Under the pieces are notes generated by a model, which did no database searches, was not told where the DNA came from, and was given only the letters and a program-made list of their open reading frames with translations. This document shows, one piece after another, positions 1-13,632 of a stretch of DNA of 36,737 nt. How positions within the stretch are numbered: the first letter of the stretch is position 1; each line of letters begins with the position of its first letter. Location: positions 1 through 36,737 of the forward strand of contig CAJWHS010000018.1 in the NCBI GenBank assembly GCA_913041415.1, read 5' to 3'. Source of the DNA: an uncultured Acidimicrobiaceae bacterium. Lineage in GTDB: Bacteria > Actinomycetota > Acidimicrobiia > Acidimicrobiales > Aldehydirespiratoraceae. The translations under genes and the position numbers were made by a program.

Positions 1-843
1 GAGCCACTCGTCGATCCATGCCAGGTTCCGGCCGGTGCCACCGGGCACCACCCCGTCGGCTGCGAGCTCGGAGGCGCCCACAATCACGGGAACGTCGTCG
101 ACAACGATCTCGAGCCCGACCCCGGATTCCTGCGCCATGCGGCCGGCATGGCCGAGCAGACCGAAGCCGGTGACATCGGTGGCCCCTGAGGCCCCGCCCG
201 CAACCGCTGCGGCGGCGCCGGCGGCGTTGGTGATGGTCATCGAGGCGATGGCGGCCTGCATCGTGGCGGCATCGACAACATCGCGCTTCTGAGCGGTGGT
301 GATGATGCCTATGCCAAGCGGCTTGGTAAGAACGAGCGCCTGACCGGCCTGGAGGCCGGCGTTGGTGAGCATCTTGTCGGGATGGACTTCGCCCACGACC
401 GCCATGCCGTACTTGGGTTCGGGGTCGTCGACCGTGTGCCCACCGGCAACGACAAAGCCGCACTCGTGCGCAATGTCCTGACCTCCGAGCAGCACGTCGC
501 CCAGCAAATCGTTCGAGAGTTCCTCGGTGTTCCAGCACACGAGGTTGAGCCCGAGGAGCGGAGTGCCGCCCATCGCGTAGATGTCGCTGACGGCATTCGC
601 GGCAGCGACCCGGCCCCAGTCGCGCGCATCGTCGACCACCGGCGTGATGAAGTCGGCGGTGACGACGAGGGCGCGTTCGTCAGAGAGACGGAAGACCGCG
701 GCATCGTCGCCGCTGGCCGCCCCAACGAGCAGATTGGGTGAATCAGGTGGAGTGAGACGGCGCACGACCTGCGCCAGTTCGCCGGGGGCGAGTTTGCAGC
801 CTCAACCAGCGCCGTGGCTGAACTCCGTCAGTCGTCGTGTCAT
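1..843 (-). CDS. selD: Selenide, water dikinase SelD, selenocysteine-containing, partial at left edge
   Basis: Makes selenophosphate from selenide and ATP, the selenium donor for selenocysteine and selenouridine. Reading from ATG 843 with AGGAGG just upstream gives MTRRLTEFSHGAG, an in-frame TGA at 802-804, then GCKLAPGEL. In the SelD family this glycine-rich loop is SHGAG-C/U-GCK, so TGA falls exactly on the catalytic Cys/Sec (residue 14), with the essential Lys three residues later (Lys17). The frame stays open to the window edge and shows further SelD motifs: GDDAAVF, AVSDIYAMGG, GGHTVDDPEPKYG, TDVTGFGLLGHA and GGTGRN. About 281 codons are visible; the C-terminus lies outside. An ordinary gene caller would truncate or miss it at the TGA. 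The family and the Sec position are clear. That the UGA is decoded as Sec is inferred from the family and the downstream hairpin; selA, selB and selC are not in this window. Confidence 0.93.
759..775 (-). promoter_or_regulatory. Candidate bacterial SECIS hairpin of selD
   Basis: On the minus strand GGCGCAGGTCGTGCGCC folds as a perfect 6-bp stem, GGCGCA with TGCGCC, and a GGTCG loop. The GGUC apical loop is the element SelB recognises in the E. coli fdhF SECIS, and the flanking GCAGGUC also matches that element. The loop begins 32 nt after the UGA, further than in fdhF but within the range usually allowed for bacterial SECIS elements. A second small hairpin (TCGCC/GGCGA) lies between the UGA and this one. 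SelB binding is inferred, not shown. Confidence 0.65.
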
Positions 844-893
844 GTCACCTCCTCAGCCTTGTGTCCGGTGGGAGCCGGAGGCCGGCGCCGCAT
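840..893 (-). other. Possible 17-codon upstream ORF overlapping the selD start
   Basis: From ATG 893 the minus strand reads MRRRPPAPTGHKAEEVT and stops at TGA 842-840, which overlaps the selD ATG (843-841) as ATGA. The ATG lies 13 bases after the minus-strand -10 TAGGGT (912-907), so it would sit near the 5' end of the transcript. Because selD starts ATGA and the DNA is GC-rich, an open frame here could be chance. selD also has its own strong AGGAGG. Confidence 0.25.
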
Positions 894-2180: not shown

Positions 2181-2222
2181 CTGTCGCTCGTGCCCGACCA
2201 GCTCGAGCCACAGGAGGAAACC

Positions 2223-3224
2223 ATGATGAAGATGCGCTCCACGCTCATCTCCCTGCTGGCTGTGCTTGCGTTGTTTGCTGCTGCCTGCGGCGATGACGAT
2301 AACGACACCGCTACCGAGGCCGAATCGACGTCGGCCTCGCAATCAGCGTCGGCACCCGCCGATGACGAAGATCACGACCACGAAGCTGACGAAAATCACG
2401 ACCACGAGTCCGAGGACGCCATGGCCGGCGACGATGCAGCTCCCGCACGTCCTGATCGCATCGTCTCGATCGATCCATCCGGCACCGAGATCGTCTACGC
2501 CATCGGCGCAGGCGATCGCGTCGTTGCTGTCGACGACTACTCGTACTTCCCCGAGGGAACCCCGGTGACCGATCTTTCCGGTTGGCAGCCCAACCTCGAG
2601 GCGATTCTGGCCTTCGAGCCAGATCTCGTCGTCATGGGATCCAACAGCGATATCGAGGCAGGCCTTGAGGCTGCCGGTGTGGTTGTCGCCCTGAGCAACG
2701 CTCCCATGTCGTTCGACGACGTCTACAGCCAGATTGAGGTCCTTGGCGCCGCTACCGGCAACATCGGTGAGGCCGCCGAGCTCGTGCTCGAGATGCAGAC
2801 CGAGATTGATGAGCTGACGGCCAACGCCCCTGACGGCACGGGTCTGAGCTACTTCCACGAGCTCGACAACACCTTGTACAGCGTGACCTCGTCGACCTTC
2901 ATCGGTGCCGTGTACGCCCTGTTCGGTCTTGAGAATGTCGCTGACCCGGCCGATGCAGACGGCGCCGCCTTCGGTTATCCGCAGCTCAGCGACGAGTATC
3001 TCGTCGACACCGATCCGGACATCATCTTCTTGGCCGACACCATTTGCTGCGGTCAGAGTGCCGAAACCGTTGCCGAGCGCGCCGGCTGGGACCAGCTCTC
3101 GGCTGTCCAGAACGGCACAGTTGTCGAGCTCAACGACGACATTGTGTCGCGCTGGGGGCCGCGCCTCGTCGACTTCATCGAAGCGATCGCTCTGGCCATC
3201 GAGTCAGCGGCCGTCCCGGCCTGA
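2223..3224 (+). CDS. btuF: Corrinoid ABC transporter substrate-binding lipoprotein (BtuF-like)
   Basis: A 333-residue extracytoplasmic binding protein of the class III (FecB/BtuF) fold that should capture cobalamin or cobinamide and deliver it to the BtuC/BtuD-like partners encoded next. The N-terminus MMKMRSTLISLLAVLALFAAAC is a lipoprotein signal with a lipobox ending at the Cys, so the mature protein is lipid-anchored. A Ser/Thr/Glu-rich linker contains an unusual Asp/His-rich run (HDHEADENHDHE, about residues 58-69). The binding domain starts near RPDRIVSIDPSGTEIVYAIG and includes DLSGWQPNLEAILAFEPDLVV and DTICCGQS. ATG 2223 is chosen because AGGAGG lies just upstream and the signal peptide starts there. 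First gene under the cobalamin riboswitch, which supports a corrinoid ligand over iron-siderophore. Confidence 0.88.
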   Translation: MMKMRSTLISLLAVLALFAAACGDDDNDTATEAESTSASQSASAPADDEDHDHEADENHDHESEDAMAGDDAAPARPDRIVSIDPSGTEIVYAIGAGDRVVAVDDYSYFPEGTPVTDLSGWQPNLEAILAFEPDLVVMGSNSDIEAGLEAAGVVVALSNAPMSFDDVYSQIEVLGAATGNIGEAAELVLEMQTEIDELTANAPDGTGLSYFHELDNTLYSVTSSTFIGAVYALFGLENVADPADADGAAFGYPQLSDEYLVDTDPDIIFLADTICCGQSAETVAERAGWDQLSAVQNGTVVELNDDIVSRWGPRLVDFIEAIALAIESAAVPA

Positions 3225-3244
3225 TCCGAATCCGGCCCCAGGCC

Positions 3245-4315
3245 ATGACCGACACGAGTGCTGCTGGGATCGGGGAGGAGCCGCTGCAAGTGGCCCGACT
3301 CGGGCCTGGCGCGCTCGTTGCCGGGCTCGTCGCCGTCGTTGGCGCGATGGTCATCGGGATGGCCCTGGGGCCGGTCGACATCTCCCCGAAGCTGATCGTC
3401 TACGAACTGCTGGACGATCTGCCTCTCATCGAACTCGACTCCGGCCTGTCGGCGCAGCGGGTCGCCATCATTGAACAGATCCGATTGCCCCGCGTGGTGC
3501 TCGGCTTTCTCGTCGGTGCGACGTTGTCGGTGAGCGGCGCCGCGTATCAGGGAGCGTTTCGCAATCCGCTTGCCGATCCGTACCTGCTCGGCATCGCAGC
3601 GGGCGCCGGTCTCGGCGCCACGTTGGCGATCACCCAGGATTGGGGTGACGGGGGCGGCTTCACCGACCCGGTCCCGCTAGCGGCCTTCGGTGGGGCATTG
3701 GTCGCCGTAGTGTTGTCGTACACCGCCGGACACATCGGCGGTCGGTCGACGGCATCCCTCGTCCTCGCCGGCGTTGCCGTTGCGAGCTTCCTGACCGCCG
3801 CTCAGACCTATGTACTGCAGGCCAACTCGGACGCATTCCGGGAGGTGTACGCCTGGATCCTTGGACGGATCGCGACGAGCGGCTGGTCCGAGGTGGTGCT
3901 GATGGTGCCGTACTTCTTGCTCGCTGCCGGCATCGTCTTCCGCTATCGGCGGGCCCTCGACGTGCTGGCCGTCGGCGACGAAGAAGCACAGGCCCTCGGC
4001 CTTGAACCGCGCAAGATCCGCGCGATCGTCGTGCTCGCCGCGTCGCTGGGAGCTGCAGCTGCAGTCTCGGTCAGTGGCCTGATCGGCTTCGTGGGCATCA
4101 TCGTTCCGCATGCCGTGCGATTGGCGTTCGGCGCCAGCCACCGCGTGTTGATTCCCCTGTCGATCCTGTTCGGCGGAGCGTTCATGGTCCTGGCCGACCT
4201 CGCCGCGCGAACGGTCGTCGAACCCGCCGAACTTCCAATCGGCGTGGTCACCGCCTTCTTCGGCGCCCCGTTCTTCGTGTTGGTGCTTCGCACGAGTCGG
4301 AGGTCAGTGTGGTGA
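3245..4315 (+). CDS. btuC: Corrinoid ABC transporter permease (BtuC/FecCD family)
   Basis: A 356-residue polytopic permease of the FecCD/BtuC family, forming the membrane channel of the corrinoid importer. Hydrophobic segments run from about residue 22 to the C-terminus. Family motifs include RLPRVVLGFLVGATLSVSG, AAYQGAFRNPLADPYLLGI, GRIATSGW, and the cytoplasmic coupling segment GDEEAQALGLEP followed by GLIGFVGIIVPHAVRL. The final part, ELPIGVVTAFFGAPFFVLVL, is the usual BtuC ending. It starts 20 bases after the binding protein, and its stop overlaps the ATPase start (GTGA at 4312-4315), so the two are translationally coupled. Confidence 0.9.
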   Translation: MTDTSAAGIGEEPLQVARLGPGALVAGLVAVVGAMVIGMALGPVDISPKLIVYELLDDLPLIELDSGLSAQRVAIIEQIRLPRVVLGFLVGATLSVSGAAYQGAFRNPLADPYLLGIAAGAGLGATLAITQDWGDGGGFTDPVPLAAFGGALVAVVLSYTAGHIGGRSTASLVLAGVAVASFLTAAQTYVLQANSDAFREVYAWILGRIATSGWSEVVLMVPYFLLAAGIVFRYRRALDVLAVGDEEAQALGLEPRKIRAIVVLAASLGAAAAVSVSGLIGFVGIIVPHAVRLAFGASHRVLIPLSILFGGAFMVLADLAARTVVEPAELPIGVVTAFFGAPFFVLVLRTSRRSVW

Positions 4316-5085
4316 GCATTATCTCTATCTCTGGTCTCACTGTTGATCTTGGAAACCAGCGAATCCTGGATGGCGTTGACCTTGACGTTGATGCAGGCGA
4401 GTGGATCAATGTCATCGGACCCAACGGGGCCGGCAAGACCACGATGCTCCGCTCGCTTCTTGGCACGGTTGAGCACACCGGCACGGTTGAACTCGACGGC
4501 ACGCGGCCGACGAAGCCGATCGAGCGGGCCCGTCGTCTCGCCTACGTGCCCCAAAGCCCAGTGATCCCTGGCGGGATGCTCGTCGGGGATTATGTGCTGC
4601 TCGGGCGCACACCGCATCGAGGCGTCTTCGACCGTGATTCCAACACGGACTGCAACGTTGCAATGGACGTCCTGACGCGACTCGATCTTGCGGCCTTCAC
4701 GATGCGCGAGGTCGGCTCACTCTCGGGCGGCGAACGTCAACGGGTCGTGCTGGCGCGTGCCCTCGCCCAGCAGGCAGACATTGTGCTGCTCGACGAGCCG
4801 ACAACGGCGCTCGATCTCGGCCACCAGCAGGAAGTCCTCGACCTCGTCGAATCGTTGCGGCGTGATCGAGGTCTCACGGTCGTCGCCACACTGCACGACC
4901 TGACCCTCGCAGCCCGATACGGCGATCGCATCGCGGTGTTATCGGGTGGGCGTATCGTCGAGACTGGGTCGCCGTCGGCAGTGCTTACCGCCGCCACGAT
5001 CGCCGAACACTTCGGCGCCACCGTTCGCATCATCGACGATCCTGACGGACCGGTGATCGTTCCCACCACAGGAGTACCTCAATGA
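4312..5085 (+). CDS. btuD: Corrinoid ABC transporter ATP-binding protein (BtuD-like)
   Basis: A 257-residue ABC ATPase that powers the importer from the cytoplasmic face. Walker A GPNGAGKTT (about residues 40-48), Q-loop region AYVPQSP, signature LSGGERQRVVLARALAQQ, Walker B IVLLDEPTTALD and switch His in TLHD are all intact. It belongs to the FepC/BtuD subgroup by this layout. Two adjacent GTG codons (4309 and 4312) could start it. I prefer 4312 because it forms a GTGA overlap with the permease stop and is better spaced from GGAGGT. It ends in a 4-base ATGA overlap with the adenosyltransferase gene. Confidence 0.9.
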   Translation: MSIISISGLTVDLGNQRILDGVDLDVDAGEWINVIGPNGAGKTTMLRSLLGTVEHTGTVELDGTRPTKPIERARRLAYVPQSPVIPGGMLVGDYVLLGRTPHRGVFDRDSNTDCNVAMDVLTRLDLAAFTMREVGSLSGGERQRVVLARALAQQADIVLLDEPTTALDLGHQQEVLDLVESLRRDRGLTVVATLHDLTLAARYGDRIAVLSGGRIVETGSPSAVLTAATIAEHFGATVRIIDDPDGPVIVPTTGVPQ

Positions 5086-5678
5086 CCGAAAAACGGGAGT
5101 CCAACTCCACACCGAACGGCGCCCCGCCAGAGGAGGATCCCCGCCCCGACGGTCTCCGATCGGCCAAGAGCCTGCTGCTGGTCAACACCGGAGACGGCAA
5201 GGGCAAGTCGTCAGCTGCGTTTGGCGTCGCCATGCGCGCCCGCGCCCGAGACTGGCCCGTCGCCGTCATCCAGTTCCTTAAGAGTGACGACTGGGTCACT
5301 GGCGAGCAGTTGATGGCCGAACCGCTCGGCATCGACTTCCAGTCGCTCGGCGACGGCTTCACCTGGGATTCCACCGACCTCACCAAAGACGAGGCCGAGG
5401 CCCGGGAGGCCTGGCGTCAAGGGAAAGAAGTCATCGAGGCAGGCGAGCATCGACTCGTCGTCTTCGACGAGATCACCTATCCCCTCAACTGGGGATGGAT
5501 CGACTCGGCCGATGTCGAGGCCACCTTTCGCGACCGCCCCGAGCGGGTCTCCATCGTTGCGACCGGCCGCGACGCGCCAGAGTGGCTGATCGACCTTGCC
5601 GACACCGTGACGGTGATGGAAAACCGCAAGCACGCCTACGAGCAGGGCATCGCCGCCAAGAAGGGCATCGATTACTAG
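5082..5678 (+). CDS. cobO: Cob(I)yrinic acid a,c-diamide adenosyltransferase (CobA/CobO/BtuR)
   Basis: A 198-residue corrinoid adenosyltransferase of the CobA/BtuR type, which attaches 5'-deoxyadenosyl from ATP to Co(I) corrinoids. The P-loop NTGDGKGKSSAAFG (about residues 35-48) is the distinctive reversed-nucleotide-binding loop of the family. VIQFLKSDDWVTGE, VFDEITYPLNWGW and IVATGRDAPEWLIDLAD complete the pattern, and the protein ends with the typical KKGIDY. A short charged N-terminal extension precedes the core. ATGA overlap with btuD and its place between importer and loop-assembly genes fit adenosylation of freshly imported cobinamide or cobalamin. Confidence 0.93.
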   Translation: MTEKRESNSTPNGAPPEEDPRPDGLRSAKSLLLVNTGDGKGKSSAAFGVAMRARARDWPVAVIQFLKSDDWVTGEQLMAEPLGIDFQSLGDGFTWDSTDLTKDEAEAREAWRQGKEVIEAGEHRLVVFDEITYPLNWGWIDSADVEATFRDRPERVSIVATGRDAPEWLIDLADTVTVMENRKHAYEQGIAAKKGIDY

Positions 5679-5694
5679 TGCACTGGAGCGACTC

Positions 5695-6234
5695 GTGATC
5701 CTCTTCATCACCGGTGGCGCCCGTTCGGGCAAGTCGACCGCAGCGGTCGAGGCAGCGCGCCATTGCGGCCGTGCGGTCGTCTTCGTTGCGACGGCGACCG
5801 CAGACGACGACGAGATGGCGGAGCGCATCGCTCGGCACCAGAACCAACGTCCCAGCGAGTGGACGACCGTTGAGGCGCCGTGCGCGCTCACAGAGGCCAT
5901 CACGGGAGCCGACCCGGAGGCGTGCGTCGTCGTCGACTGCCTGTCCCTGTGGATCGCCCATGAGTTGATGGCCGATGAGACGCTCAGCGTCGAGTCACTT
6001 GACCTGAGGCTCGACGCTGTCCTCACCGCAGCCGGCGGACGACCCGGCCCGACGATCCTCGTGTCCAACGAAGTCGGTTCCGGCATCGTCCCCGACAATC
6101 TGCTTGCTCGTTCCTTCCGCGATCTCCTCGGACGCGCCAATCAGCGGGTCGCCGCGGCGGCTGATCGTGCCGTGCTCTCGGTATCCGGTCGTCTCGTCGA
6201 CCTCGGCGCCCCTTCGGAGAGGCTTCGTGTCTGA
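5695..6234 (+). CDS. cobU: Adenosylcobinamide kinase / adenosylcobinamide-phosphate guanylyltransferase CobU
   Basis: A 179-residue bifunctional enzyme that phosphorylates adenosylcobinamide and then transfers GMP to give adenosylcobinamide-GDP. The N-terminal P-loop FITGGARSGKSTAAVEAA is diagnostic. The following FVATATADDDEMAERIARHQ contains the His that carries the guanylyl group in this family. VVVDCLSLWIAHEL and ILVSNEVGSGIVPDN-type segments complete the fold. The start is GTG 5695. Presence of the kinase/GTP branch means the cell can use imported cobinamide. The 3' end overlaps the cobT start by eight bases. Confidence 0.93.
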   Translation: MILFITGGARSGKSTAAVEAARHCGRAVVFVATATADDDEMAERIARHQNQRPSEWTTVEAPCALTEAITGADPEACVVVDCLSLWIAHELMADETLSVESLDLRLDAVLTAAGGRPGPTILVSNEVGSGIVPDNLLARSFRDLLGRANQRVAAAADRAVLSVSGRLVDLGAPSERLRV

Positions 6235-7219
6235 TTCCGCCCTCGCCCGTCTTCTTGAGCACCTCCCCGGCCCCGACACGGTGTCGCAGGCCGCAGTCGC
6301 CGAGCGGGCAGCGACGACCCTTCGCCCGGCGGGGGCCTTCGGGCGCCTCGACGCCGTGGCCTCGTGGCTCGCTGCCTGGCAATGGTCGACCACACCGAAG
6401 GTCGAGAAGCCTGCCGTGGTCGTGTTCGGTGCCGATCATGGCGTCGCGGCCGAGGGCGTCAGCGCGTATCCGGGCAAGGCGACCCAGGCGATGGTCGCAG
6501 CGATGGATCAGGGTGTCGCCACGGTGACGGCGCTCGCTGAGCAGGTCGGTGTCGCCTTCTTTTTCCACGACGCCGGTGTTGGGCGCCCGACCGGCAACAT
6601 CCGCGTCGAGGACGCCATGAGCCCCAACGAGTTCGACGACGCCGTGAAGGTCGGGGTCGACGCGGTCGAAAATATTGAGGCCGACCTGCTCGTCTTCGGC
6701 GAGGTCGGCATCGGCAACACCACTCCTGCTGCGGCTGTGACTGCGGCCGTACTCGGAGGACGCCCCGGCGACTGGGCCGGCCCCGGGACAGGTGTGCAGG
6801 GCGAGGCACTCGCCAACAAGCGCCAGGTCGTCGAAGACGCCGTCGTGCGAGTCGGTGACGTCACCCCACTTGAGGCGCTCCGGCGGCTCGGTGGCCGCGA
6901 GCTCGCAGCGATGGCCGGCGCAACCGTGGCGGCCCGCCATCGCGGTATCCCGGTTCTGCTCGACGGTTTCATCGCCACCGCAGCGGTCGTGCCTGTGCAT
7001 ATGGCTCGCCCCGGAGCGCTCGACCACGTGTGGGCCGGGCACGGATCCGCCGAGCCCGGACACGTGCGGCAACTCGACGCGATCGGAAAGGACCCGTTGC
7101 TTACGCTCGATCTTCGTCTGGGTGAGGGGAGCGGTGCGGTGATCGCGATCCCGATCGTCCAGGCGGCGTGTGCGGCGGTCGTCGAGGTCGCCACCTTCGA
7201 GGAGTTCGGGCTCGCATGA
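6227..7219 (+). CDS. cobT: Nicotinate-nucleotide--dimethylbenzimidazole phosphoribosyltransferase CobT
   Basis: A 330-residue enzyme that activates the lower-ligand base (usually 5,6-dimethylbenzimidazole) to alpha-ribazole phosphate using nicotinate mononucleotide. Family motifs visible are VFGADHGVAAEGVSAYP (the DMB-binding region), GIGNTTPAAAVTAA, GPGTGV, VLLDGFIATAA and near the C-terminus RLGEGSGAVIAIP, which carries the catalytic Glu. The start GTG 6227 overlaps the end of cobU and has GGAGAGG upstream. In-frame upstream starts would only extend into cobU. It ends in an ATGA overlap with cobS. No bluB (DMB synthesis) is in the window, so the source of the lower ligand is unknown. Confidence 0.94.
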   Translation: MSDSALARLLEHLPGPDTVSQAAVAERAATTLRPAGAFGRLDAVASWLAAWQWSTTPKVEKPAVVVFGADHGVAAEGVSAYPGKATQAMVAAMDQGVATVTALAEQVGVAFFFHDAGVGRPTGNIRVEDAMSPNEFDDAVKVGVDAVENIEADLLVFGEVGIGNTTPAAAVTAAVLGGRPGDWAGPGTGVQGEALANKRQVVEDAVVRVGDVTPLEALRRLGGRELAAMAGATVAARHRGIPVLLDGFIATAAVVPVHMARPGALDHVWAGHGSAEPGHVRQLDAIGKDPLLTLDLRLGEGSGAVIAIPIVQAACAAVVEVATFEEFGLA

Positions 7220-7962
7220 GCTTCTGTCACGCCTGGGCGTTCCTGACCCGTCTTCCGGGCGGTGCTCATCCGGCCGACGAGCGGGCGCTTGGCATGAGCG
7301 TCCCGTGGTTCCCGGTCGTTGGCGCGGTGATCGGGCTCTTGATCGGGTTGGGCTGGCTCGGGCTGAACGAACTCGTGTCGCCGCTCACCTCGGCAACGAT
7401 CGCCGTGATGGTCGGGATCATGATCACCGGGGCGTTCCACGAGGACGGTTTGGCCGATACCGCCGACTCGCTTGGCGGGTACACGCCCGAACGTCGTCTG
7501 GAAATCATGAAGGACTCGCGGGTCGGGACGTTCGGGGTGCTGGCACTCGTCTTCTCTGTCCTGGTTCGTGTGGTTGCGCTTGCCGCGCTGGAACCGGTCG
7601 AGGGTGTGGTCGCCCTCGTGATGGCGCACGCAGTGGGTCGCAGCATCGCCACCATCGTGATGGCGTCCAGCAGGGCAGCCTCGTCGACCGGGCTCGGCCA
7701 GAGCTACACCGCGCACCTGCCAAAGCCGGCGGTGTGGGCGATCAGCGCCGTGATTGCAGGCTGCAGCTTCGTGGGCGGACCCGCCGGCGTTGTCGGCTAC
7801 GGCCTGGCCCTGGTCGGCGCTCTGCTGATCGTCGGCTTTGCTCGACGAGCGTACGGCGGCACGACCGGCGACGTGCTCGGCGCGATCGAACAGGTCGGGG
7901 AGATGGCGGTGCTGTCTGCGGCAGCTCGTCTCGTCGCCGAGCACGGGTGGCAGTGGGGGTGA
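7216..7962 (+). CDS. cobS: Adenosylcobinamide-GDP ribazoletransferase CobS
   Basis: A 248-residue integral membrane enzyme that joins adenosylcobinamide-GDP to alpha-ribazole (phosphate), the last committed step of nucleotide-loop assembly. The signature HEDGLADTADSLGG (about residues 76-89) and the downstream RLEIMKDSRVGTFG are typical of CobS. FLTRLP near the N-terminus and AYGGTTGDVLGAIEQ near the C-terminus also match. At least five hydrophobic segments are visible. It overlaps cobT by four bases and the phosphatase gene by four bases (GTGA). Confidence 0.94.
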   Translation: MSFCHAWAFLTRLPGGAHPADERALGMSVPWFPVVGAVIGLLIGLGWLGLNELVSPLTSATIAVMVGIMITGAFHEDGLADTADSLGGYTPERRLEIMKDSRVGTFGVLALVFSVLVRVVALAALEPVEGVVALVMAHAVGRSIATIVMASSRAASSTGLGQSYTAHLPKPAVWAISAVIAGCSFVGGPAGVVGYGLALVGALLIVGFARRAYGGTTGDVLGAIEQVGEMAVLSAAARLVAEHGWQWG

Positions 7963-10210: not shown

Positions 10211-12307
10211 TCAGGCTAGAGGGGTGGGTTCGCGGAGTGGTTCCGAGCTGTTTGATGATCGCCAGGCGGCTTCGCTGTGCCGGGTGATGAGCTCGAGCAG
10301 GATCTCCACGTCGTCAAGGGTCACCGCCGGGTTCATGAAGATCAGACGGAAGCAATTGATGCCGTGGACCGGCTGGTAGCCAATCAACGCCGAACCCTCC
10401 TCCTGCATCGCCGCCTTGGCCGCTGGGGCGACTGTGTGAAGTGCCGCATGTTGTTCGTCGTCGAGAGACGTGAGATCGAACGGGCGGAGTTCGGGCGGGA
10501 CCCAGGTCAGGCAGACGTTGGTGAAGTCCCCGGCGACGATAAACGCCACGTCGTCGCGTTCGGTCACGCGGCGTCGCGCGTGGTCGGCGAGCGCCACGGC
10601 ATGGTCGACCCGCGTCGCCATGCCGACGTCGCCGCGTGACTTCCAGGTGAGCCATGCCTTGAGCGCGTCGACCCGGCGCCCGCACTGCAGGCTTCGGTCG
10701 CCTGCGTCGAGATCGGCGTTCGCCTTGTCGGGCTGGAAGAGATAGTCGGCGCCGGTGGCAAAGGTGGTGAGCAGTCGCTCCGGCTCGCGCACGAGCAGGG
10801 CGGTGCACTGTTGGGTGAGCCCGGCCATCTTGTGAAGGTTCCACACCACGGAGTCGGCGCGCTCGATACCGGAGAGCCGGCGGCGCTCCATGGGCGAGAG
10901 AAGTGCAGCGCCGCCGTAGGCCGCGTCGACATGGAGCCAGATGCCGTGCTCCTCGCAGCGGTCGGCGATCGCGTCGATCGGATCGAATGCAGCGGTCACG
11001 GTGGTGCCCGCCGTGGCGATCACGGCGAGCACCTCGGGCTCGTCGGAGAGACACTCGTCGAGTGCGTCGACATCCATGACCCCTGCGGCATCGGTCGGCA
11101 CCGACACCACCGATGCACGACCGAGCCCCATGACTGCGGCGATCTTCTCGGCGGCGTAGTGCCCCGAATCGCTAACCAGGATCCGAAGTCGTCGCCCGTC
11201 GGAACCCGCCGTGACGAGATCGGGCTGAAGCCGGTGCCGAGCGAGCTGGAGCGCATGAAGCTGCGCAAGCGATGCCCCTGCGCACATGAGGCCGGCGGGG
11301 TGGTCTCCGGACTCGGGAAAACCGACCAGCCGCGCCATCTTCGCGAGAAGTGCACGCTCGATCATCGTGAAGACCGGCGCGGCCTCGAAGGTGGCATTGG
11401 TCGTGTTGAGTGCAGCCCCGAGCCAGTCACCGACAACAGCGAGCGGATCCGCCCCTGCGTAGTTCTGATTGAGGAAGTAGGGATGGTTGGTCTGTACGGA
11501 CCGTCGCACCACCAGGTTGGCCGCGTCGACGAGATCGCCCGGCTTGGCCGGCGGCTCGTCATCGGTGATCTCGAGACCGATCGTGCGGGCGAAGTCGGCG
11601 GCCAGGTCGGCGGGGCCGGCCCACTGGACGACGGGTTCGTCACGGCCGGGTGGACGGGTGACGTGGCGGAGGGCACGGGCGGCGATCGTCTCGACCGGGT
11701 TGATCGGTGCAGGCGACCGAAAATCCAGGAGATCGAGACCGTGAGCGGCGAAGAGTCGGTCGACGAGGGCGAGTGAAAGACCGATGACCCCGTTCGCGCT
11801 TCCCTCGATGCGGTCGGCGAAGAGGCCCGCCGCGCCCTGGAGTCCGTAGGCGCCCGCCTTGTCGTCGGCATCGCCCGAGTCGATGTACCACGCAAGCCGT
11901 TCCTCGGTGATCTCGCCGACTACCACCTCCGTGACATCGAGGGCGCTGTGCACGACAGCATCGCCATCGGTGCCGACAACGGCGACGGCGATACCGGTGA
12001 GTACCTGATGGGATCGGGCGGCGAGCGAACGCAGCATCGCTCGGGCCTCGTCGCGATCTGCGGGTTTGCCGAGGATCACCCCGTCGAGCGCGACGGTCGT
12101 ATCGGCAGCCAGCACGACACGGGCGGGACTGAGCGCGGCCATGGCTTTCGCTTGCGCCAACCGTTCGACGTAGTCGCCCGCGGACTCGCCGCTCAAGGGT
12201 GTCTCGTCGACGGCAGCAGGCTCGACCCGCGGGTGCACCCCGACTCTGCGCAAGAGCTCTCGTCGACGGGGGGAGCCTGACGCCAGGATCAGTTCGAGAT
12301 CGGCCAC
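10211..12307 (-). CDS. Fusion of Maf nucleotide pyrophosphatase and GAD/CSAD-like PLP decarboxylase
   Basis: One uninterrupted 698-residue frame with two full domains. Residues 1-200 are Maf: LILASGSPRRRELL, VVLAADTTVALDGVILGKP and DDKAGAYGLQGAAG. Maf proteins hydrolyse non-canonical or modified NTPs. From about residue 205 to the end is a fold-type I PLP decarboxylase close to the glutamate / cysteine-sulfinate / aspartate decarboxylase group: HPYFLNQNYAG, WLHVDAAYGGAAL with the PLP-pairing Asp, WNLHKMAG with the Schiff-base Lys (about 493), YLFQPDK, LQCGRRVDALKAWLTWK, NVCLTWVPPELR and EEGSALIGYQP. Likely products are GABA, beta-alanine or hypotaurine; the substrate cannot be assigned. I chose GTG 12307, which begins ADLELILASGS, over a longer frame whose extra residues look non-coding. 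I know of no described fusion of this kind. Confidence 0.85.
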   Translation of the reverse strand: MADLELILASGSPRRRELLRRVGVHPRVEPAAVDETPLSGESAGDYVERLAQAKAMAALSPARVVLAADTTVALDGVILGKPADRDEARAMLRSLAARSHQVLTGIAVAVVGTDGDAVVHSALDVTEVVVGEITEERLAWYIDSGDADDKAGAYGLQGAAGLFADRIEGSANGVIGLSLALVDRLFAAHGLDLLDFRSPAPINPVETIAARALRHVTRPPGRDEPVVQWAGPADLAADFARTIGLEITDDEPPAKPGDLVDAANLVVRRSVQTNHPYFLNQNYAGADPLAVVGDWLGAALNTTNATFEAAPVFTMIERALLAKMARLVGFPESGDHPAGLMCAGASLAQLHALQLARHRLQPDLVTAGSDGRRLRILVSDSGHYAAEKIAAVMGLGRASVVSVPTDAAGVMDVDALDECLSDEPEVLAVIATAGTTVTAAFDPIDAIADRCEEHGIWLHVDAAYGGAALLSPMERRRLSGIERADSVVWNLHKMAGLTQQCTALLVREPERLLTTFATGADYLFQPDKANADLDAGDRSLQCGRRVDALKAWLTWKSRGDVGMATRVDHAVALADHARRRVTERDDVAFIVAGDFTNVCLTWVPPELRPFDLTSLDDEQHAALHTVAPAAKAAMQEEGSALIGYQPVHGINCFRLIFMNPAVTLDDVEILLELITRHSEAAWRSSNSSEPLREPTPLA

Positions 12308-12363
12308 CCCGGAAGTCTGGCACGGCCCCAGGAGCGCGCCACCAGCGTTCCCGCCGGGGCGCC

Positions 12364-12369
12364 TAGCCT
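12364..12369 (+). promoter_or_regulatory. -10 element six bases before an ATC codon
   Basis: TAGCCT, identical to the -10 used before the dus and mycothione reductase genes. Here the codon at the leaderless position (12376) is ATC, not ATG or GTG. It lies at the first open codon stretch of the downstream membrane protein. Confidence 0.5.
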
Positions 12370-12375
12370 CTGGGA

Positions 12376-13632
12376 ATCGACACGCCGGAGCCACCGCCTT
12401 CTGACCCGAACGTCCCCCCATCGGACGACGAGGTCCGTGCCCTGCCAGAGCAGCTGCCGCCACCGACCGCGGAGGAGATCCGGCCGGACAGCTTCATCAT
12501 CACCACCGGGTTCTTCCGGGCTGGCACCGATCCCATCCGACTCCCACGAGCCGTTGACGGACCCACCTACACGCCCGAAGAGGCCGCTGTGGTGGCACGT
12601 CAGTTCTTCGAGGCGTTGGCCTCCGGACGCGAACTCGAACACGACCCCCCCGACCCGGTCGAGTTCGCCCGTGCCAACGGTTTGCTGGTCCTCTTCAACG
12701 AGGGTGTCAGGGTGGTCTTCGAGACCCACCTCGAGCGTATGCCGACCGACATCGAGGCACGGTGGCGCGACCTCATTGCCGGTGGAGCTCGATCCGAGGC
12801 GTTCGGCCCCCTCACGTTGCAGGAGCGTCTCGACGAGCGTCAGGTCGAGACGGCGCTGGTGGCTGGCCGACGCCAGCGGGTCGTGAATCTGTTCGTCACG
12901 TTGGTTCTGATCGTCGGCGTCGCTGTCGGCGCTTCGTGGGGATGGCAGGAGTTCGGTCCCGGCGAGGACCGCATCCGCGGTGCGCTGCAGTTCGCCGACA
13001 CCGACGAGACAGCGGACGTCGCCGCGATCGAGGGCGGGCCACCCGTTGCCGAGCCCGCCCTCAGCACGACGCTCAGCGATCCGGTTTCGGTGCTCGCCGG
13101 CGGCGGTCCTGTTGCCGATCGGGTCACGTCGGCGCCCGTCGTGCGGTTTCCGTACCCACCGGGCTCGATCGGAGCGTCGCTCTTTCAGTACGCGAACTCG
13201 GGGCATGTCGCCCTCGTCGGCCCGGCCGGGTTCACCGACGACGCATGCCTGCGGGTCAGTGTCGTCACCGACGAACTTCGTCCGCTTGACACCGTGACCC
13301 ACGGACCGTGCGTCGAGACGATCGGCCGCGACGCCACGGTCGGCTGCATCGGTGAGACGGCGATCCTCTTGGCGCTCGACATCCCGGCCGGTGAGGTGGC
13401 GTTGCCCGAAGGCGGCACCGGTTTCGCTGATGCGATCCGCCTCCAACTCGTCGCCGATGGCGCCCCCGAGTATGAGGTTCTCACCGTGCGGGGCACGATC
13501 GAGGTGGATCCCGACAGCGAGATCGTGATCCCGCGCTTCGGGGGCCAGATCGGGGAGACGATCACGTTCGACACCGGCGCCGGCCGGTCGGGCACGTGCA
13601 CCCTCACCGGCGACTTCCCTGGTCGCTCCTGA
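12376..13632 (+). CDS. Membrane-anchored protein of unknown function with uncertain start
   Basis: The frame is open from 12367 to TGA 13632. The first ATG/GTG codons (GTG 12589 and 12592) lie deep inside sequence that already looks coding, with about three quarters G/C at third positions and protein-like text (DTPEPPPSDPN, IITTGFFRAGTDP). The only candidate initiators upstream are CTG 12370 and ATC 12376, the latter six bases after TAGCCT. The predicted protein is about 418 residues: a Pro/Asp-rich N-terminus, a cytoplasmic domain (EEAAVVARQFFEALASG), one membrane helix (VVNLFVTLVLIVGVAVGASW), then a Thr/Ala/Pro linker and an extracytoplasmic domain with several Cys (DDACLRVSV, GPCVET, VGCIGET, GTCTL). 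The single anchor and outside domain suggest an envelope protein. I do not recognise the family. Confidence 0.65.
   Translation: MDTPEPPPSDPNVPPSDDEVRALPEQLPPPTAEEIRPDSFIITTGFFRAGTDPIRLPRAVDGPTYTPEEAAVVARQFFEALASGRELEHDPPDPVEFARANGLLVLFNEGVRVVFETHLERMPTDIEARWRDLIAGGARSEAFGPLTLQERLDERQVETALVAGRRQRVVNLFVTLVLIVGVAVGASWGWQEFGPGEDRIRGALQFADTDETADVAAIEGGPPVAEPALSTTLSDPVSVLAGGGPVADRVTSAPVVRFPYPPGSIGASLFQYANSGHVALVGPAGFTDDACLRVSVVTDELRPLDTVTHGPCVETIGRDATVGCIGETAILLALDIPAGEVALPEGGTGFADAIRLQLVADGAPEYEVLTVRGTIEVDPDSEIVIPRFGGQIGETITFDTGAGRSGTCTLTGDFPGRS

Follow-up and report, generated by a model that had tools for sequence, protein, structure and literature searches.

The window analyzed here is a stretch of 36,737 nucleotides from a draft genome, and its positions 1-843 hold, on the minus strand, the 5' part of selD, the gene for selenide, water dikinase. 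The frame starts with ATG at 841-843, begins MTRRLTEFSHGAG-UGA-GCKLAPGELAQVV, and is open to the window edge. The UGA at 802-804, 13 codons after the ATG and flanked by MTRRLTEFSHGAG on one side and GCKLAPGEL on the other, is the sole in-frame stop before the true end of the gene. When this codon was read through, the product scored 346.8 bits (E = 1e-103) against the SelD profile TIGR00476 (curated family cut-off, 125), both AIRS domains were found (PF00586, N-terminal; PF02769, C-terminal), and the solved SelD structure 3u0o could be aligned to it along nearly its whole length. A strong Shine-Dalgarno sequence (GAGGAGGTG, 846-854, minus strand) lies directly upstream of the ATG.

The first base of the window is also base 1 of contig C18, and selD is truncated at this contig end. 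We found the 3' part of the gene on contig C132 (locus L050), where 51 bases (4116-4166) are identical to window positions 1-51. Joining the two contigs gave a selD of 345 residues with an intact frame and a normal stop. The gene is thus split by the assembly in addition to being interrupted by the UGA. Two other parts of the window are worth recording. A row of genes for cobalamin uptake and nucleotide-loop assembly lies at 2190-7962 on the plus strand (periplasmic binding protein, FecCD, ABC ATPase, CobO, CobU, DBI_PRT (CobT) and CobS). At 10211-12463 on the minus strand there is an open frame of 750 residues, a possible gene fusion, in which residues 57-238 form a Maf-type pyrophosphatase and residues 310-652 a PLP-dependent decarboxylase.

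An earlier note on this DNA had placed the TGA at 802-804 in the frame from ATG 843, at the column where SelD proteins have a catalytic Cys or Sec, with a conserved Lys three residues later. Both placements are seen in the alignment to 3u0o: the Cys of its SHGAGCGCK motif falls on the UGA (residue 14, the active-site position), and the Lys follows three residues on (residue 17; codon 793-795, minus strand). The residues flanking the UGA (RLTxxSHGAG-U-xCK) are conserved at the protein level. SelD was present in 45 of 61 related genomes, with one in-frame TGA in 36 and none in nine. Within the family of the window organism, all 31 SelD-bearing members have the TGA, which excludes the sequencing error (TGC or TGT at 802-804) that the note had named as refuting its reading. 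Those relatives that carry a name are MAGs of Acidimicrobiaceae, at 94% identity to the isolate EAC9. SelD with a UGA at this position was common across the phylum and the class, and was also found in Gemmatimonadetes and Anaeromyxobacter records. At this column the recovered SelD sequences have TGA, TGC or TGT; the recovery motif admitted only a stop or Cys there, and some distant SelD sequences without TGA were missed. Three UGA-containing sequences outside the motif (L259, L265 and L270) are excluded from the counts, and the wider SelD sample is skewed to Actinomycetota.

The assembly contains the machinery for decoding UGA as selenocysteine. We identified a tRNA-Sec with anticodon UCA (64 bits; cut-off, 47), and selA (371.8 bits) and selB (291.1 bits) as neighbors on contig C57, with the SelA domain and the SECIS-binding winged helix of SelB both found by Pfam. 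SelB was also over the cut-off in 35 of the 36 relatives with a TGA-containing selD, and just below it in the remaining one. Two further genes are each interrupted by one UGA at a Cys/Sec site. In the gene for the formate dehydrogenase alpha subunit, fdhA, the UGA (NNIDSCNRT-U-HAPSVVG) is followed by a SECIS with the loop GGUCU at +21. The third selenoprotein gene encodes a SelW-like Rdx protein (L278, G000:C7:27953-28159; MSHTVEITYCVP-U-DYS, with the motif CVP-U) and has a SECIS-like hairpin with the loop CGUGA at +20. The presence of all these genes bears out the earlier suggestion that the organism decodes selenocysteine. The genes selD, fdhA, selAB and selC are on separate contigs of a fragmented draft assembly (143 contigs, 96.9% complete), so that their origin in one cell rests on the binning and on the occurrence of this pattern in related genomes. 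We considered 2-selenouridine as an alternative use of the SelD product; a search of the genome for the 2-selenouridine synthase YbbB gave no match, and we rejected this use, so that selenocysteine appears to be what the selenophosphate is used for. Separately, six related genomes (G043, G045, G046, G049, G054 and G057) have a longer molybdopterin oxidoreductase frame, some 800-1100 residues in length and interrupted by a single TGA. It is distinct from the 650-residue fdhA product and is likely another selenoprotein of the formate dehydrogenase type.

A hairpin, H2, follows the UGA of selD at 759-775 on the minus strand. Its stem of 6 bp (GGCGCA/UGCGCC, 770-775/759-764) closes the loop GGUCG (765-769); numbered from the U of the UGA as 0, the stem is at 29-34/40-45 and the loop at 35-39. 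Folded alone, H2 has an energy of -11.5 kcal/mol (z = -2.9). Folded with the whole region from the UGA on, the energy is unremarkable (z = -0.18), and we dropped this measure as evidence for a SECIS. Energy alone therefore proves nothing here, and the case rests on comparison across species. In a first set of sequences, 46 of 51 distinct UGA-containing sequences formed all six pairs and all had the loop xGUxx; among 57 Cys-containing sequences, one formed all six pairs. In an enlarged set, the 136 distinct UGA-containing sequences fell into class A, with H2 (106), class B (23) and neither (7). Among 78 distinct Cys-containing sequences there were five resembling class A (at least five pairs and a GU loop) and none resembling class B. 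All six pairs formed in 101 of the 106 class A sequences, and the GU of the loop is invariant in this class. In class B, the stem is at 14-19/23-28 and the loop, Gxx (GGA, GGG, GUC or GUG), is at +20; L232, L237 and L257 and other actinomycetotal loci for Sec-containing SelD belong here. The two classes were defined on the same sequences that were counted, so these counts describe and do not predict. The independent part of the test is provided by the Cys-containing sequences and the codon controls.

Of the six pairs in the H2 stem, two have changed on both sides, 29:45 (GC, CG, AU and UA) and 32:42 (GC, CG and UA), and a third has A-U in place of G-C. Overall, 99% of the stem positions were paired in the observed sequences, compared to a mean of 69% and a maximum of 74% after synonymous recoding, and to at most 94% when codons were reshuffled within columns and amino acids. 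For 16 divergent representatives (less than 78% identity), the energy was -10.7 kcal/mol and the mean of the recodings was -4.0 kcal/mol, and the controls never reached the observed pairing. The covariation, the invariant GU of the loop, the near absence from Cys homologs and the synonymous controls support the conclusion that H2 is a real SECIS under selection, and we predict that it is bound by SelB. A SECIS-like stem also occurs at the class A position in two Cys-containing selD genes, L185 (which forms all six pairs) and L099, with the loop CGUCC or GGUCC. SECIS remnants have been reported after changes from Sec to Cys (PMC1794560), and the class A-like sequences with Cys, such as L185, may be what is left after the loss of a Sec codon.

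The loop of the selD SECIS starts about 14 nt farther from the UGA than that of fdhA in the same genome (+35 compared to +21; +20 for the selW-like gene). The E. coli fdhF loop presumably starts at +21 too, as in the organism's own fdhA. The earlier note had described a 6-bp hairpin with a GGUC loop "as in E. coli fdhF". The stem and the loop letters GGUC, which fdhF and selD share, hold up, but the likeness does not extend to the spacing. H2 is within every limit of the published bacterial SECIS model of bSECISearch (PMC13188914). That model calls for an apical loop of 3-9 nt with a G within the first two positions and the pattern G[G|U], an upper stem of 4-16 bp, an energy of -7.5 kcal/mol or lower, and 16-37 nt between UGA and loop; H2 has a 5-nt loop (GGUCG), 6 bp, -11.5 kcal/mol and 32 nt. 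Its spacing comes close to the upper limit, and it departs from the model, which has a single stem-loop core, in that a second conserved hairpin lies in the spacer.

Together, these results make it very highly probable that selD, whose 5' part occupies positions 1-843 on the minus strand, encodes a selenoprotein, with the UGA at 802-804 recoded as selenocysteine by means of the hairpin at 759-775. Three other accounts of the UGA were weighed. Because the genome is a draft and selD is cut by a contig end, the TGA might be a sequencing or assembly error for TGC or TGT, or selD might be a pseudogene. We regard this as extremely improbable, since TGA occurs at the same codon in 36 of 45 relatives, including 31 of 31 in the family, the frame past the UGA is intact to a normal stop, and the SECIS is maintained. 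It is also extremely improbable that the UGA is read by a near-cognate tRNA (Trp, Cys or Arg), as proposed for the SPS1-UGA of some insects (PMC4561486), or has been reassigned: tRNA-Sec, SelA and SelB are all present, and H2 fits the bacterial SECIS model and shares the loop pattern xGUxx with the organism's own fdhA and selW-like gene. Most of the window genes that were checked end in TGA, so UGA has not been reassigned wholesale.

The remaining account has translation start after the UGA, at GTG 765 or another codon, giving a shorter SelD that would be without the N-terminal loop. Mechanical ORF finding does yield the frame 1-765 with the GTG at 763-765 (minus strand) as its start, in keeping with the earlier expectation that standard annotation would mishandle the gene. 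We consider this start very improbable, by a hair less so than the other two accounts. The GTG lies inside the SECIS, and no Shine-Dalgarno sequence was found in the sequence upstream of it, in contrast to the strong one before ATG 843. The short form would lack the catalytic Cys or Sec and the Lys of SelD proteins, and conservation at the protein level extends to both sides of the UGA (RLTxxSHGAG-U-xCK).

We conclude that the active-site UGA of selD is almost certainly decoded as selenocysteine in this marine actinobacterium; both the insertion and its efficiency are inferred from sequence. Translation would begin at ATG 843. Sec-tRNA-Sec, made by SelA from selenophosphate and carried by SelB-GTP, would be held by way of SelB at the hairpin at 759-775 and deliver Sec as residue 14, and because of this delivery the ribosome would not stop at 802-804. 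Sec14 and Lys17, in a mobile N-terminal loop, would handle selenide, and the enzyme would convert selenide and ATP to selenophosphate. With Sec in the loop that makes selenophosphate, the enzyme would itself be the source of its active-site selenium.

The spacer hairpin, H1, lies at 776-794 on the minus strand, between the UGA and H2 and abutting H2. Its core pairs 787-791 with 779-783 around the loop CCC (10-28 from the U of the UGA, core 13-17/21-25). In class A, H1 has a mean energy of -9.4 kcal/mol. Synonymous recodings average -5.7 kcal/mol, with -6.65 as the best of 200, and the Cys homologs -2.7 kcal/mol. For the 16 divergent representatives the values were -8.4 kcal/mol observed and -5.1 kcal/mol recoded (best of 300, -7.05). 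Some hairpin is found at this position in 105 of 106 class A sequences, several of them weak; L101 has none. The stem is kept through paired amino-acid swaps in several lineages (KLAPGEL, KLGPAEL, KIRPADL and KLSPAEL). When codons were shuffled within columns, five of 500 shuffles reached the observed pairing of the H1 core in the first set and none did in the larger set, in both cases with kinship among the sequences left in. The pairing of H1 is far less strict than that of H2. A three-way junction closed by the helix UGAGGC/GUCUCA was also considered; this helix folds in the window sequence, but its pairing across species was no better than in synonymous controls, and we rejected it as a conserved element.

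These properties suggest a two-hairpin SECIS in the SelD genes of Acidimicrobiia and several other groups, Gemmatimonadetes and Anaeromyxobacter records among them. H1 would fold out 13-19 nt, bringing the SECIS loop to about the distance seen in fdhA and the selW-like gene, so that a SelB tuned to about 20 nt could serve a loop 32 nt away; class B, with one hairpin alone and its loop at +20, would then indicate that the SECIS has moved along the message in evolution. We give this proposal, taken as a whole, nearly an even chance of being right. That H1 has no function, following from the KLAPGEL protein sequence and GC-rich codons and leaving H2 alone as the SECIS, is a serious possibility that falls somewhat short of even. 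The codons for LAPGEL are complementary by nature (CTCGCC/GGCGAG), the synonymous recodings already fold at a mean of -5.7 kcal/mol with 69% of the H1 core paired, and L101 belongs to class A without having H1. Against this, the observed energies are lower than those of the best recodings, both over all class A sequences and in the divergent representatives, the Cys-containing sequences average only -2.7 kcal/mol, and the stem survives the paired amino-acid swaps. Because H1 is looser than H2 and one sequence does without it, a role for the spacer stays hypothetical. No tandem-hairpin SECIS turned up in a literature search.

Sec-containing SelD is, as the earlier note had recognized, already well known and has been surveyed (PMC1794560, PMC4561486). 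The genes in those surveys are like the one described here in family, in the UGA at the catalytic position, in the SECIS right behind it and in the accompanying Sec genes, and the protein is no different; no description of Sec-containing SelD for Acidimicrobiia was found in the library searched. The Cys-containing SelD of most Actinomycetes, Bacteroidota and others belongs to the same enzyme family, with Cys at the UGA column and the SECIS nearly absent (five of 78 distinct sequences). FdhA and SelD are reported to be the two most widespread bacterial selenoproteins (PMC1794560), so the finding of Sec in this SelD is correct but ordinary. What is less expected is the extra conserved hairpin between the UGA and the SECIS. 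If the two-hairpin reading is true, it would explain how bacterial SECIS elements tolerate wide distances from the UGA.

The selD case confirms that this lineage decodes selenocysteine. In ordinary gene calling, selD here is prone to be given the wrong start (GTG 765), with loss of the active-site loop. The picture obtained for SelD (two classes, invariant loop letters and near absence in Cys homologs) aids the annotation of selenoproteins in GC-rich genomes, in which a SECIS can hardly be recognized by its folding energy alone.
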